DNA of 40,302 bases from Acidobacteriota bacterium (GTDB taxonomy: Bacteria; Acidobacteriota; Terriglobia; Bryobacterales; Bryobacteraceae). Positions 2,431 to 34,740 of the stretch are shown one piece after another. The stretch is from positions 1 through 40,302 of the forward strand of contig VFZO01000022.1 in assembly GCA_016871155.1 (NCBI GenBank), in the 5' to 3' direction. The first letter of the stretch is position 1; every line of letters starts with the position of its first letter. Under the pieces are notes generated by a model. It did not search any database. It had not been told where the DNA came from and saw nothing but the letters and a program-made list of their open reading frames with translations. The translations under genes and the position numbers were made by a program.

Positions 2431-3362
2431 TTCCCAACGGCCTCCCACAATAGTTTCAACGTCCGCTTGCCGGCATCGTCGAGCTTGAATCGTGTGGCCA
2501 CCGCCCCGACGTCTCCGTTCCGAGGTCCTCGCACCACATGGTTCTTGAATACTCCTCGAAGAACCAACAGGTACTTCAGACCTTCGATGCCGTACTGCTC
2601 GAACTCCGGGACGAACACGGCCGCCTTCGCGAATGCCGCCGCCGCTTCGCGTTCGCGCTTCTTCTCCCACAGGTCGAAGGCTCGCGCGTACAGATCGGCC
2701 GGTCCGGCCGCCGGCATGGAGCCGGAGGCGCCGCGCACAAGCTCGTCGATCATCGTCTTGCCGTGCGCGCCCGTGAAGACGCCGAGCCCTGGCGCCTTGC
2801 TCTGAAATTCGCTGATCCGGGGAAGCGTCAGGCCGGCTTCGTCCTTCACGAAACGAACCACCGGCACCGCTTTGTTCAGGTCGATCACATCGTCTACAGT
2901 TATCTTGCCGACGGCCTGCAGGAAGAACGGCAGGTTCACGCCGGCGCTGACTCTTCGGAAAAAGTCCACAAGGCCGACGCCGGTCGGAGGCAGCGAAATC
3001 AAAGCGTGCGCGCCATGCTCCGCCGCGTGTTTGGCCAGTTTCACGCTGATGTCAGGATCGTCGGATTGAACACCAATCACCATCGTGATCCGCTTCCCGC
3101 GTCCGGCCGCGAGCAGCGCCTCCGCTCCGCGCAGCCGCTCCTCTGGGGTCAGCGACCAGAACTCGCTGGCCAACTGTGGCCATGCCACGCCATGGGCGCC
3201 GATGCGCGCCAGAAATTCGATTTGCTTGCCGAGCGTTGGAGCGTCCAGCGATCCATCGTCGTGAAACGGCGTTTGCGCAATGGGAAAGATCCCGCGGAAA
3301 GCGGGTGTGCCGGCGGCGAACAGGGAAGGAGCCGCGAATAGGGCGCGTCGGGAAAGTGTCAT
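2427..3362 (-). CDS. DapA/NanA-superfamily class I aldolase-like protein, Tat-type leader
   Basis: The 311-residue protein has the N-acetylneuraminate lyase/dihydrodipicolinate synthase fold: IFPIAQTPFHDDGSLD near residue 25, LTPEER at 71-76 and VRFVKDEAG with the Schiff-base lysine K173. Two usual active-site parts are changed: the GTTGE/GSTGE loop reads PQLASE, and the YNxP segment with its catalytic tyrosine reads FFLQAVG around 146-152. Substrate choice or even catalysis is therefore uncertain; a 2-keto-3-deoxy acid aldolase is the natural guess beside the dehydratase. The N-terminus MTLSRRALFAAPSLFAAG is a twin-arginine leader like that of the downstream enzyme. ATGA overlaps on both sides indicate one mRNA. 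Confidence 0.8.
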   Translation of the reverse strand: MTLSRRALFAAPSLFAAGTPAFRGIFPIAQTPFHDDGSLDAPTLGKQIEFLARIGAHGVAWPQLASEFWSLTPEERLRGAEALLAAGRGKRITMVIGVQSDDPDISVKLAKHAAEHGAHALISLPPTGVGLVDFFRRVSAGVNLPFFLQAVGKITVDDVIDLNKAVPVVRFVKDEAGLTLPRISEFQSKAPGLGVFTGAHGKTMIDELVRGASGSMPAAGPADLYARAFDLWEKKREREAAAAFAKAAVFVPEFEQYGIEGLKYLLVLRGVFKNHVVRGPRNGDVGAVATRFKLDDAGKRTLKLLWEAVGK

Positions 3363-4252
3363 TTGGGGAGTCTCTTCAATATTTCTCGGGCAAACGGGGA
3401 GCCCTTCTCCACGTGGGTCATGATCACCGCAGTCAGGCGCTTCCCGGGATGGATGTAGAGGTAGGTCCCGAACGCGCCGCCGTGTCCGAAGGCGCCGTCC
3501 TCCAACAGTTGCCAACCGATACCGTAGTTCGCGGATAGCGTGCCGGTCTGCTTCCTTGTCATCTCTGCGCGCGATTTCTCATTAAGCAGGCGCGGGTAGG
3601 CGCGCGCGAACTGCAACAGATCGGCAGCGTTTGATTCGACACCGCCCGGAACGAGCACGAAACGCCCCTTATACTGGGCGGTGGTCATGCCTGCCGGATC
3701 GAACACGGTGCGTTTGGCGAACTGGTCGAACGGAGTGCCACTCACGATCTCCGCGATGCGCCCGGCCACGCAGAACGAGGCGCCGCCGTACTGATACCGC
3801 GCGCCCGGCTCATAGGCGAGTGGCGTCTTCACAATCCGGTCCACCGACTCGCTCAAAAGCTGGTTCGGGTTGCGAATCATTCGCATCTGTTCGCCCGGCG
3901 CGTTGTTTCCGAAGATTCCGGAGGTGTGGGAAAGAAGCTGCCGAATGGTCGAGGAATGCTCGAATGCCGGAAGATACTTCGCAACTCTCTCGTCAAGCGA
4001 AAGCCGTCCCTGCTCGACTAGGGTCATGATCGCCGTCGCAGCAATTGGCTTCGATGTCGAAGCAAGGGCATACACATCGTCGCGGTTCGCTCCGGCGGCG
4101 CGCTCATAGACGATCTTGCCGTTCTGCTCGATCAGCACAACCGCGTGCGGAATCTCTTTTCGCTCAAACGCCGCGCGAATATAGACGTCGACATCCGCGA
4201 AGGCGGAGGCGATCAGCAGGAGAAACGTCACAACAGAGATAATACCCCTCAT
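3359..4252 (-). CDS. Serine beta-lactamase-fold hydrolase (class C/esterase family), secreted
   Basis: The 297-residue protein has a hydrophobic Sec-type leader ending near residue 19 (ASAFA). It contains the nucleophile motif S65-T-S-K68, LLSHTSGI downstream, a YQYGGAS segment in the place of the Y-x-N motif, and HGG (FGHGGAFG) in place of the KTG box. These are the marks of the class C beta-lactamase/penicillin-binding/esterase superfamily, which includes true lactamases, D-aminopeptidases and esterases, so the substrate is open. It is the first gene of the minus-strand operon with the aldolase and dehydratase. Its ATG shares bases 4251-4252 with the ATG of the divergent gene at 4251. Confidence 0.85.
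   Translation of the reverse strand: MRGIISVVTFLLLIASAFADVDVYIRAAFERKEIPHAVVLIEQNGKIVYERAAGANRDDVYALASTSKPIAATAIMTLVEQGRLSLDERVAKYLPAFEHSSTIRQLLSHTSGIFGNNAPGEQMRMIRNPNQLLSESVDRIVKTPLAYEPGARYQYGGASFCVAGRIAEIVSGTPFDQFAKRTVFDPAGMTTAQYKGRFVLVPGGVESNAADLLQFARAYPRLLNEKSRAEMTRKQTGTLSANYGIGWQLLEDGAFGHGGAFGTYLYIHPGKRLTAVIMTHVEKGSPFAREILKRLPK
4238..4243 (+). promoter_or_regulatory. Possible -10 element for a leaderless start at 4251
   Basis: GATAAT matches TATAAT at five of six bases and ends seven bases before the ATG at 4251, the distance expected for transcription starting at the start codon itself. No clear -35 element or Shine-Dalgarno sequence was seen. On the other strand CACAAT lies seven bases before the ATG at 4252. 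Both assignments rest on short matches only. Confidence 0.3.
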
Positions 4253-30756: not shown

Positions 30757-32187
30757 ATGTCCTCCGAATGGGAGCCCGTAATCGGGCTGGAAGTCCACTG
30801 CCAGCTCGCCACCAAGACTAAAATCTTTTGCAGTTGTCCGGTGGAGACCGGCAGCGACCCCAACACCAACGTGTGCCCGGTCTGCCTGGGGCTGCCAGGG
30901 GCACTGCCCGTGCTGAGCCGCGACGCCGTGGAACTGGCCATACAGGGCGCGCTGGCGCTGAATTGCGAAGTGCAGCCGGCCAGCGTTTTCGCCCGCAAAA
31001 ACTACTTCTATCCGGACCTGCCCAAGGGCTACCAGATCTCGCAGTACGACAAGCCGTACGCGCTGCGCGGCTGGCTCGACATCGGCGGGAAGAGAATTGG
31101 CATTACGCGGATCCATATGGAGGACGACGCGGGCAAGTCCCAGCACGACGGATTCCGGGATTCCGACCGCTATACCTATGTGGATTTGAACCGCTCCGGC
31201 ACGCCGCTAATCGAGATTGTCTCCGAGCCCGATGTTCGCTCCGCCGATGAGGCGGTGGCCTATATGACCGCGGTGAAGCAGGCGTTGGAGTTCGCCGGCG
31301 TATCCCTGTGCGACATGGAAAAAGGCCATCTCCGCTGCGACGCCAATGTGAGCGTCCGCCGGAAAGGCGAGGAGAGGTTCGGTACGAGAACGGAGACCAA
31401 GAACGTGAACTCGTTCCGGTTTCTGAAGCAGGCGATCGAATACGAGATTGAACGGCAGATCGGCGTGCTGGAATCCGGCGGGCGAATTGTGCAGGAGACG
31501 CGCCTGTTCGACGCCAATTCCGGCGAAACCTTCTCGATGCGGTCCAAGGAGGACGCGCACGACTACCGGTATTTTCCGGAACCCGATCTCGTGCCGCTTC
31601 GCATCGGTGAGAAGTGGTTGCGCGCCGTCTCCTCGGCGATGCCGGAGATGCCCCAGGCGCGCCGCGCGCGTTTTCGCAGCCAGTACGGGCTGAGCGAGTA
31701 CGACGTGGACGTCCTAACGGCCACACGCGATACGGCGGACTACTTTGAGCGCGCGGCCACGGCCGCCGGCGACGCGAAAGCCGCGGCGAACTGGGTCATG
31801 GGCGACTTGGCCGCGGCGCTGAAGGAGGCCGGGAAAGAGATCGGCGCGTGTCCGGTTCCGGCGGAAAATCTGGGCGCCCTGGTGCGGTTGATCGCAAGCG
31901 GCGAGCTTTCCGGCAAGTTGGCGAAAGAGATCTTTCCGAAGATGTTCGCCACCGGCGGCGCACCAGCCGAAATTATGGAACGCGAAGGACTGAAACAGAT
32001 TTCCGATGCCGGCGCGATCGAGAAGATCATCGACGGGATTATCGCCGCCAATCCGAAACAGGTGGAACAGTTCCGCGGCGGGAAATCCACGGTTTTGGGC
32101 TTCTTTACCGGCCAAGTGATGAAGGCGACCAAAGGGCAGGCGAATCCCGGAGTGGTGAACGCGCTGCTGGCCGAAAAACTCAAATAA
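30757..32187 (+). CDS. gatB: Aspartyl/glutamyl-tRNA(Asn/Gln) amidotransferase subunit B
   Basis: The 476-residue protein has the GatB kinase-like core: [17 protein letters not shown], zinc-type cysteines C25/C27 and C40/C43 (CSC...CPVC), [31 protein letters not shown], and [12 protein letters not shown], followed by the YqeY-like tRNA-binding tail. With GatA and GatC it converts Glu-tRNA(Gln) or Asp-tRNA(Asn) to the amide form in the cytoplasm. Length is normal. gatA and gatC are not in this window, so the complex genes are dispersed. It has its own compact promoter region just after a terminator. Confidence 0.97.
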
Positions 32188-32267: not shown

Positions 32268-33506
32268 ATGCAGGACAATCTTTTCTTTACCGAGCTTGTC
32301 GGGCTCAAGGTCTACGACCTTAAGGGCCGGAAACTCGGCCGCGTTCGCGACGCCGCCATTGTCCCGCTTGTAGACCCCTACCGCGTAGACCGGTTCCTTC
32401 TGGCGGGCGGCTGGGCGTGGCTGACCGTTCGGCACGATCAGGTCCGGACCATCAATCTGGACGGCATCTGGCTGCGCGACGAGCAGTTGACCCCGTACCA
32501 CTCCGACGACTACATGCTGCGCCTGGAGCGCGACTTGCTCGACCAGCAGATTATCGATGTGCATGGGCGCAAGGTCGTCCGCGTCACCGACGTGACTTTC
32601 GTCAAGACCCTTGTCGACGGGCACGACGTTTTGCGCGTGCAAGAAGTGGACATCGGGTTGAGAAGCATGTTCCGCCGCCTGATGCAGGGGGTAGCGCCGC
32701 GGCGAATCGTCCGCCGCCTGATGATGCCGATTCCGGTTAACTCGATCTCCTGGGAGTATTGCAATATCGTCGAGAGCGACCCGCAACGGCGCCTGCGTTT
32801 GAACATCTCGAGCGAAAAACTAGAGGCGATGCACCCGGCCGATTTGGCCGACATTGTGGAAGAGTTGGGACCCTCCGACCGGCAGGCGATTATTGGCTCG
32901 CTCGATTCGGAGGTGGCGGCGGAAGCGTTGTCGGAAGTGGATCCGGACATTCAGGCCAGTATTCTCGAATCGCTGTCGGAAATGAAGGCGGCCGAGATCA
33001 TCGAGGAGATGGATCCGGACGAGGCCGCCGACGTGCTGGCCGAGATGGAGGAGGCGAGATCCGGCGCCATCCTCGAGGAGATGAGCGACGAGCCGGCCCA
33101 CGACGTCGAAGAGTTGCTGGAGCACGACGAGGATACCGCCGGCGGCATGATGACTACCGACTATGTGGCGGCGCCGCACGGCGCCGCGATTGCGGAGGCG
33201 CTGGAACTGATTCGAAACAACGTCGAAGCGCTGGAGGCGACGAATACCGTTTTTCTGGTTGGAAGCGACGACCAGTTGACGGGCGCGGTGCCGATCGCGC
33301 GGTTGTTTTCGCAGGACCCGGCGACGCCCCTGGCGAGCCTGCAGGCGGAGACGCTTATCTGGGTGTTGTCGAGCGAAACCAAGGAGCGGACCGCGGAGAT
33401 CTACGACAAGTACAACCTCGTCGCGCTGCCCGTCGTCGACGGCTCCAAAAGACTGTTGGGCGTGATCACCTCCGACGACGTGATCGCGGAGTTGCGCAGT
33501 GTTTAA
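32268..33506 (+). CDS. PRC-barrel/MgtE-N/CBS protein lacking the MgtE channel domain
   Basis: The 412-residue protein starts with two PRC-barrel-like segments (VGLKVYDLKGRKLGRVRDA near 11 and QQIIDVHGRKVVRVTDV near 94). Residues about 184-284 are the MgtE N-terminal superhelix (HPADLADIVEELGPSDRQAI, then MDPDEAADVLAEME), leading to DEDTAGGMMTTDYV and a CBS pair (about 290-412; last strand LLGVITSDDVIAEL). In MgtE these cytosolic parts bind Mg2+ and gate the pore; here there is no transmembrane domain at all. It overlaps the downstream Nramp-type transporter by eight bases, so it probably senses Mg2+ for that transporter. Confidence 0.88.
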   Translation: MQDNLFFTELVGLKVYDLKGRKLGRVRDAAIVPLVDPYRVDRFLLAGGWAWLTVRHDQVRTINLDGIWLRDEQLTPYHSDDYMLRLERDLLDQQIIDVHGRKVVRVTDVTFVKTLVDGHDVLRVQEVDIGLRSMFRRLMQGVAPRRIVRRLMMPIPVNSISWEYCNIVESDPQRRLRLNISSEKLEAMHPADLADIVEELGPSDRQAIIGSLDSEVAAEALSEVDPDIQASILESLSEMKAAEIIEEMDPDEAADVLAEMEEARSGAILEEMSDEPAHDVEELLEHDEDTAGGMMTTDYVAAPHGAAIAEALELIRNNVEALEATNTVFLVGSDDQLTGAVPIARLFSQDPATPLASLQAETLIWVLSSETKERTAEIYDKYNLVALPVVDGSKRLLGVITSDDVIAELRSV

Positions 33507-34740
33507 GCGGCTCCGCTACCATATCGCGGTGTTTTTCTCGGTCATCGGGCCCGGCTTTATCACGGCTGTCGTCGATAACGACGCCGGCGGCATTTTCACC
33601 TATTCGCAGGCGGGCGCCAAGTATGGCTATCTGCCGTTGTGGACGCTGCTGCCGATCACGCTGCTGCTGATTGTGACGCAGGAGATGTGCTCGCGCATGG
33701 GCGCTGTGACGGGCAAAGGGCTCTCCGATCTGATTCGCGAAGAGTTCGGTCTGCGCACGACGTTCTTCGTGATGCTGGCGCTGTTGGGAGCAAACCTCAC
33801 CAATGTGATGGCCAACTTCGCCGGCGTGGCGAGTTCGCTCGAACTGTTCGGAATTTCGCGATACATAACCGTGCCCATCGGCGCGCTGATCGTCTGGCTG
33901 CTGGTGGTGAAAGGAAGCTATGCGAGCGTAGAGCGCATCTTTCTGTTTGCCACGGCGCTGTATGTCTGCTACATCGTTTCCGGTGTGCTGGTGAAGCCCG
34001 ATTGGAAGGAGGCCGCCATCTATTCTGTCCGGCCGGTGCTGCTGTTTGAGCCGGACTACATCAAGCTGTTGATCGGCATGGTAGGAACCAGCGTGGCGCC
34101 TTGGATGCAGTTCTACTTGCAGGCGGCGATTGTGGAAAAAGGCGTTTCGGCAAAGGAGTACGCCGAGTCGCGGATTGAGGTGATCGTCGGTTGCGTGGTG
34201 ATGACCGTGATCGCGTTCTTCATCATCGTGGCCTGCGCCGGCGCGATTTGGAGCGTCCACCCGCGCGATATCAAGGATTCGACCGACGCCGCGCTGGCGT
34301 TAAAACCGTTCGGAAATTACGCATATCTGTTGTTTTGCGCGGGCCTGTTCAACGCCTCCCTCTTCGCCGCGTGCATACTGCCGCTGTCCACGGCGTACAC
34401 GGTGTGCGAGGGCCTGGGCTTTGAATCCGGAGTGAACAAGCGTTGGAACGAGGCGCCGGTTTTTTACTGGCTCTTCACGCTGCTGATCGCCATTGGCGGC
34501 GGCGTAATTCTGATTCCGGGTTTTCCACTGGTCCGGATGATTCTCCTGTCGCAGGTTATCAACGGTGTGTTGCTGCCGTTTGTCTTGATCTACATGACGT
34601 TAATCGTCAATCGAAAATATCTGATGCACGGATGGACCAACTCCCGCTTGTACAACGCCGTCGCGTGGTCGGCTGTGGCGATTATGATCGGACTGACGGT
34701 GGCGCTGGCGGGAATTTCACTTCGCGACATTTCCGGTTGA
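33499..34740 (+). CDS. Nramp-family transporter with NRMT-type (magnesium) binding-site residues
   Basis: The 413-residue membrane protein (about 11 helices) aligns with Nramp transporters through GPGFITAVVDNDAGG, where canonical proteins have D-P-G-N: D28 is kept but the asparagine is G31. In helix 6 the canonical MPHN reads A200-P-W-M, so the metal-binding methionine is alanine. As I recall, loss of exactly these two ligands marks Nramp-related magnesium transporters (NRMT), which take up hydrated Mg2+ rather than Mn2+ or Fe2+. It starts at GTG inside the end of the MgtE-N/CBS gene. Mg2+ import by proton or passive mechanism is inferred. Confidence 0.88.
   Translation: MFKRLRYHIAVFFSVIGPGFITAVVDNDAGGIFTYSQAGAKYGYLPLWTLLPITLLLIVTQEMCSRMGAVTGKGLSDLIREEFGLRTTFFVMLALLGANLTNVMANFAGVASSLELFGISRYITVPIGALIVWLLVVKGSYASVERIFLFATALYVCYIVSGVLVKPDWKEAAIYSVRPVLLFEPDYIKLLIGMVGTSVAPWMQFYLQAAIVEKGVSAKEYAESRIEVIVGCVVMTVIAFFIIVACAGAIWSVHPRDIKDSTDAALALKPFGNYAYLLFCAGLFNASLFAACILPLSTAYTVCEGLGFESGVNKRWNEAPVFYWLFTLLIAIGGGVILIPGFPLVRMILLSQVINGVLLPFVLIYMTLIVNRKYLMHGWTNSRLYNAVAWSAVAIMIGLTVALAGISLRDISG

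Follow-up and report, generated by a model that had tools for sequence, protein, structure and literature searches.

A putative Mg2+-sensing soluble protein encoded beside an NRMT-type Nramp transporter in Bryobacteraceae

Can a soluble protein built like the cytosolic domain of MgtE regulate a carrier of an unrelated fold? The question is raised by two adjoining genes on contig VFZO01000022.1 of an Acidobacteriota bacterium (Bryobacteraceae), analysed over a stretch of 40,302 nt which is called the window here. The first gene, SOL (32268..33506, + strand, ATG start, 412 aa), encodes a soluble PRC/MgtE_N/CBS protein, as judged from the open reading frame (ORF) call, Pfam and structure-library searches and an AlphaFold model. 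The second gene, NR (33499..34740, + strand, GTG start, 413 aa), encodes an adjoining transporter of the Nramp family (SLC11) and of the NRMT type. We propose SOL as the regulatory partner of NR, and NR as an importer of Mg2+ and probably of Mn2+; on balance, it is rather likely that SOL is a cytosolic Mg2+ sensor which restrains NR. The pair is real and conserved, and it belongs to a kind described in 2014. The role of the soluble partner was left open at that time, and the co-occurrence data presented below make the sensor idea testable. If it is true, one sensor module serves two unrelated transporter folds, and Mg2+ feedback can be a separable part.

The two ORFs overlap by 8 bases (33499-33506), and a GGAG motif lies 7 bases 5' of the GTG start of NR. 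As a part of the explanation that we favour, the genes probably form one operon-like unit. In Pfam searches SOL matched PRC (E 1.2e-5), MgtE_N (1.2e-26) and CBS (1e-10), and no MgtE membrane domain (PF01769) was found in it. At E 0.01, MgtE_N and CBS were detected in all 65 members of the SOL family and PRC in 58 of them. The same three domains were found by Pfam in five of five further partners, three of which came from plasmids of Alicyclobacillus, Citrobacter and Rhodococcus.

The AlphaFold model of SOL, built with 65 sequences, had a mean predicted local distance difference test score of 84.8 and a predicted template modelling score (pTM) of 0.49. Barrel strands occupy residues 4-69, which correspond to the PRC barrel (32277..32474, +). 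A second barrel-like domain with a helical hairpin follows (aa 86-161, 32523..32750, +); its barrel-like unit spans residues 86-128 and has no Pfam match of its own in the window SOL. One hhalign comparison with the first barrel (probability 12%, E 0.0025) lends weak support to its being a PRC barrel as well. After a poorly modelled linker (168-180) come the helices of the MgtE_N superhelix (aa 182-284, 32811..33119, +) and the CBS pair (aa 291-412, 33138..33503, +; 291-411 in the model), which stops short of that end of the MgtE plug helix which contacts the gate. Foldseek superposed the model on the cytosolic domain of MgtE (PDB 2yvy) over 230 columns at 1.6 Å, and by sequence the matching part is residues 182-409. 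This match is silent on the Mg2+ state, since one chain was kept per identical sequence and the Mg2+-free structure 2yvz has the same sequence. Models of the FliG middle domain also matched 63 of the 65 family members (32829-33134 in the window), so that the putative Mg2+ sensor resembles a flagellar switch protein.

For NR, Nramp was the only Pfam match (E 2.4e-87). Among solved structures its best relative was EleNRMT, a magnesium-carrying member of the Nramp family, with 360 bits, and the next Nramp, MntH, scored 82 bits. According to the available text of Ramanadane et al. (PMC8806188), the NRMT signature consists of DxxG in transmembrane helix 1 (TM1) and TxxA/T in TM6. NR carries D28-A-G-G31 (33580..33591, +) where canonical Nramps have D-P-G-N, and T197-S-V-A200-P-W-M203 (34087..34107, +) where these have A-x-x-M-P-H, as read from the translation and from alignments. 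Both TM6b histidines linked to proton coupling are replaced, by W202 and L207 in NR and by W and N in EleNRMT (alignment; PMC8806188, in part). In a 39-row tree clustered at 72% identity, in which the window NR was represented by relatives, a branch with 100/100 support parted two canonical Nramp rows from all the others, EleNRMT included. NR is an NRMT-type Nramp, and its family falls on the same side as EleNRMT in this tree. The signature, the clade and the MgtE contrast described below indicate that NR most likely takes up Mg2+, and it can probably carry Mn2+ too. These results bore out what the original prediction had claimed about the locus, namely the overlap, the D-A-G-G and A-P-W-M motifs, the NRMT type of the transporter, and a partner made of PRC, MgtE-N and a CBS pair with no membrane domain.

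The original prediction had also suggested a survey of neighbouring genes and of the sites of the paired Nramps, and both surveys turned out in its favour. The scan for relatives took one genome per species, and the best 80 of at least 576 confirmed NR relatives were used. In 68 of these 80 loci a SOL gene preceded NR on the same strand (four of the 68 being partial matches), which argues that the adjacency is not due to chance. The spacing was within 52 bases in 44 loci, 72-355 bases in 19 and beyond 1 kb in five. Whole-genome searches for 14 loci, 12 without SOL and two with partial matches, revealed a full-length SOL in 12 and partial matches only in two. Over all loci there were 147 distinct NR proteins, 100 of them with SOL in the same locus. 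Leaving aside the canonical Nramp of locus L120, SOL came first in 87 and NR first in 12 of the 99 paired NR. The TM1 site was DxxG in all 98 paired NR with a readable site; position 197 was T in 97 and A in two of the 99, and position 200 was A in 85, T in 10, S in four and methionine in none. The 47 NR without SOL in the fetched piece reflect short flanks, genes lying apart or membership of other branches, and include six DPSG, two DAGA and one DPGN sites.

Some loci deserve separate mention. For the Nramp branch of loci L174-L179, with DPSG and TTISPYL sites, the fetched pieces contained no SOL. In L120 a canonical DPGN/MPH Nramp 1.4 kb from SOL was considered as a partner; an NRMT lies between the two, and it was not counted. 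Canonical-type Nramps lie downstream of the SOL-NRMT pair at about 0.2 kb in G185:C30 (L120) and at 1.2 kb in G119:C17, and the site was read in L120 only. Long open frames had suggested a natural SOL-NR fusion, which was dropped when L032 proved to hold two genes on the minus strand (SOL end 1483, NR start 1479); no fused frame was noticed in the fetched loci, in which no search was aimed at fusions. In L022, from the class of the window, an open frame of 371 aa (2708-3823) lies between SOL and the NRMT start, all on one strand. Two contigs titled Bifidobacterium breve and Bacteroidetes (L084, L065) carry Acidobacteriota-like pairs, and these record names look wrong.

The pair was also met on plasmids. 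NR matches were found in 176 plasmid records, and most of the 40 that were listed had about 30% identity; SOL matches were found in 72, many of the 60 listed being full MgtE by annotation. By coordinates, 11 of the 40 listed NR records had a SOL-type match within 1 kb on the same strand, in both gene orders (Citrobacter, Serratia, Alicyclobacillus, Arthrobacter, Cellulomonas, Leifsonia, Pseudarthrobacter, Mycolicibacterium and three Streptomyces clavuligerus), and Rhodococcus makes 12. A CBS protein was seen beside the Nramp in all three plasmid regions inspected.

SOL and NRMT were present in the same 56 of 199 genomes of the phylum, under thresholds chosen here. For NR, 45 genomes scored at least 479 bits, and a further 11, in which the gene order is reversed, scored 306-338 bits. 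For SOL, 55 genomes had a match reaching the barrel region, and one (G193) was counted from its locus L163; the matches extended to about E 1e-23, and a weaker SOL could be missed. Outside the 56 are three genomes (G009, G095 and G192) whose best match was a distant relative without SOL (253-295 bits, DPSG in L177, L178 and L179), as well as genomes with weaker Nramp matches. In one 67% complete genome (G136) NR was cut by the contig end and no SOL was found. The two genes were within about 2.1 kb in 38 of the 56 genomes (37 by coordinates, and G193) and 3.7-5.6 kb apart in five. They were separated in 13, on different contigs in 12 and by 199 kb in one; assembly breaks could account for some of the 12, but in at least four genomes (G181, G105, G149 and G173) the distance from NR to the contig end exceeds 50 kb.

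The MgtE membrane domain was found in 11 of the 56 pair-bearing genomes and in 106 of the 143 others, a contrast whose Fisher p of 2e-12 is overstated because the relatedness of the genomes is ignored. Six of the 11 matches in pair-bearing genomes were weak (63-86 bits). Within families f21, f25, f42 and f5, eight pair-less genomes had MgtE and one (G170) lacked it, and eight of 14 pair-bearing genomes lacked it; in family f4, three pair-less genomes were without MgtE as well. This contrast suggests that the SOL-NRMT pair replaced MgtE. CorA showed no such depletion, with strong matches in 34 of the 56 pair-bearing and 90 of the 143 other genomes. MgtE, strong CorA and MgtA were all absent from 23 of the 199 genomes, four weak CorA matches (G000, G187, G162 and G186) being taken as absent, and 15 of the 23 carry the pair. 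The co-occurrence data point to lineages of Acidobacteriota that may import Mg2+ chiefly through the pair. No MgtE membrane domain match was obtained in the genome of the window. An earlier assumption that this genome has no CorA was dropped, because a 545-aa protein (G000:C46, L116, 1402-3039, - strand) gave a single C-terminal CorA match of 46 bits. The C-terminal membrane part of this protein contains a GMN motif, and the protein may be a divergent CorA-type importer.

The residues with which SOL could hold Mg2+ were compared in an alignment of 121 SOL, 10 MgtE of the same phylum and the segment of Thermus thermophilus MgtE, using the ligand positions given in the available text of PMC5882242. 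Of the 121 SOL, 109 have the gene order of the window or no partner in the fetched piece, and 12 are in reversed order. The window SOL retains E59 (Mg7) as E219, D91 and D247 (Mg4) as D251 and D404, and D95 (Mg6) as D255; E219, D251 and D255 lie in the superhelix and D404 in the CBS pair. Among the 109, the E59 position is acidic in 95, D95 is kept in 107 and D247 in 85. In the 10 MgtE, E59 is acidic in 10, D91 is kept in 10, D95 in five, D226 in six, D247 in 10 and D250 in nine. From the retained ligands we infer that the N and CBS domains of SOL hold cytosolic Mg2+ between them.

On these grounds the following mechanism is proposed. NR would import Mg2+ without the proton-coupling histidines of classical Nramps. 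As cytosolic Mg2+ rises, it would be bound by SOL, whose MgtE_N superhelix and CBS pair would close around the Mg4, Mg6 and Mg7 sites. By analogy with MgtE, the closed Mg2+-bound SOL would lower transport by NR when cytosolic Mg2+ is high. Since SOL lacks the end of the plug helix with which MgtE touches its gate, contact with NR must use other surfaces, and speculatively these might be the N-terminal barrels. The genes, domains, ligand residues, pairing and co-occurrence are observed directly, and Mg2+ as the main substrate, Mg2+ binding, physical contact and inhibition would follow from them by inference. In its most far-reaching form, SOL would be a dissociable Mg2+ brake which lacks the gating end of the plug and docks by its barrels on a carrier of unrelated fold, and in Bryobacteraceae, Acidobacteriaceae and other Acidobacteriota the pair would have taken over from MgtE as the main regulated system of Mg2+ import; we put this forward tentatively and hold it to be rather doubtful.

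Besides the relatedness that inflates the MgtE contrast, several observations weigh against the sensor explanation. The Mg5 ligands D226 and D250 are lost in the window SOL (N383, A407), and among the 109 SOL D226 is kept in four (N in 99) and D250 in four (E in 13). The ligands of Mg2 (E258) and Mg3 (D259) are absent, as the window SOL stops about three residues before E258; 80 of the 121 SOL finish 2-3 residues past the profile, some extending up to 14 further and one 40. The D91 position is D in 78 of the 109 SOL and in none of the 12 in reversed order, where it is proline in seven (L160-L170 and the plasmid locus L118); D95 and D247 are each kept in nine of these 12. The ligand counts and the missing plug-helix end imply that a part of the clamp is conserved in the family, though variably, and that the part which moves the gate in MgtE is missing. 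With that end absent, SOL cannot gate exactly as MgtE does, and the MgtE mechanism is not transferable unchanged to SOL and NR. An AlphaFold model of a joined SOL-NR chain (L036, 827 aa, artificial tether) gave a pTM of 0.69, compared with 0.49 for SOL alone; no interface could be read from it, and it speaks neither for nor against one. Rfam gave no match in the window, the M-box RNA included, and no M-box was found in 15 related loci, where only two tRNAs turned up. Finally, eight of the 23 genomes without MgtE, strong CorA and MgtA are also without the pair, so that a genome lacking the known importers need not have it.

Experiments on related pairs bear on the same point. The original prediction had presented the pairing as a modular reuse not known to have been characterised. 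This does not hold: in the available text of Shin et al. 2014 (PMC4072509), which is the source for this paragraph, NrmT was named, a gene homologous to the cytoplasmic domain of MgtE was noted beside most members, and cytoplasmic feedback regulation or a chaperone role was proposed for the partner. In a manganese-deficient strain, NrmT of Acidobacterium capsulatum gave complete rescue. In a magnesium-deficient strain, rescue was confined to low millimolar Mg2+, and co-expression of the partner did not improve it; the authors concluded that this NrmT probably carries manganese. This experiment is the closest to the window pair and weighs against a magnesium-only role. The rescue assay does not test feedback, because an inhibitory sensor would not improve rescue. 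The NrmTs of Clostridium acetobutylicum supported transport in Bacillus subtilis with no need of the partner.

The strongest competitor is a manganese system, in which the main substrate of NR is Mn2+, and the MgtE-type sites of SOL detect Mn2+ or another divalent ion. It shares its conclusion with that of Shin et al. for the A. capsulatum pair (PMC4072509, in part), and Mn2+ was bound at the substrate site in crystals of EleNRMT (PMC8806188, in part). The same text states that NRMTs lack the soft methionine ligand, which speaks against manganese, as do the depletion of MgtE in pair-bearing genomes and the 15 of 23 importer-poor genomes that carry the pair. Moreover, the genome of the window already has a second, separate Nramp with canonical D-P-G-N and M-P-H-N sites. 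We regard the manganese system as unlikely.

Two further explanations give SOL another function, and we consider each of them quite improbable. CBS pairs commonly bind adenosine nucleotides. That of SOL might bind ATP or AMP and tune transport to the energy state, in which case the metal sites would be remnants; there is a structure of MgtE with ATP (5x9g, by title), and the loss of the Mg5 ligands and of the plug-helix end would fit. Remnant sites are hard to reconcile with the D95 (Mg6) position, which is D in 107 of 109 SOL compared with five of the 10 phylum MgtE. PRC barrels are protein-docking modules in RimM, and SOL might equally be a metal chaperone or an assembly or scaffold factor for NR, with no metal-responsive regulation. 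Chaperone activity is named as the alternative in the available text of Shin et al. (PMC4072509). Against such a role stand the acidic ligands retained in SOL and the C. acetobutylicum NrmTs, which functioned in B. subtilis without a partner, so that the partner was not required for assembly there. The restraint of NR by a Mg2+-sensing SOL remains the explanation that we favour.

In the surroundings of the pair, an ORF at 30757-32187 ends 80 bases upstream of SOL, and from its sequence we take it to be gatB. A tRNA scan found no tRNA in the window.

Compared with known systems, the window pair is nearest to that of A. capsulatum, as described in the available text of PMC4072509. Both have the same two-gene arrangement in an Acidobacteriota host: nrmT follows the MgtE-N-like gene, and there is no M-box; this riboswitch was found upstream of only some pairs of the Shin type and is absent at the window pair. 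The window pair belongs to another lineage, and its nearest titled relatives include metagenome-assembled genomes of Bryobacterales and Bryobacteraceae. To the account of Shin et al., in its available text, the present analysis adds the barrel domains, the co-occurrence counts and the ligand pattern; in the open-access literature we recognised no later work on the MgtE-like partner. NR shares with EleNRMT (PDB 7qia; Ramanadane et al. 2022, PMC8806188, in part) the DxxG-TxxA site and a tryptophan at the position of the first TM6b histidine, and differs at the second, which is N in EleNRMT and L207 in NR. SOL shares with the cytosolic domain of MgtE (PDB 2yvy and 2zy9) the MgtE_N superhelix, the CBS pair and the Mg4, Mg6 and Mg7 ligand positions. 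It differs from MgtE in having no membrane domain and no plug-helix end (Mg2 E258, Mg3 D259), and in its extra N-terminal barrels. At the Mg5 positions, N383 and A407 of SOL are the same two changes as in the laboratory mutant D226N/D250A of MgtE.

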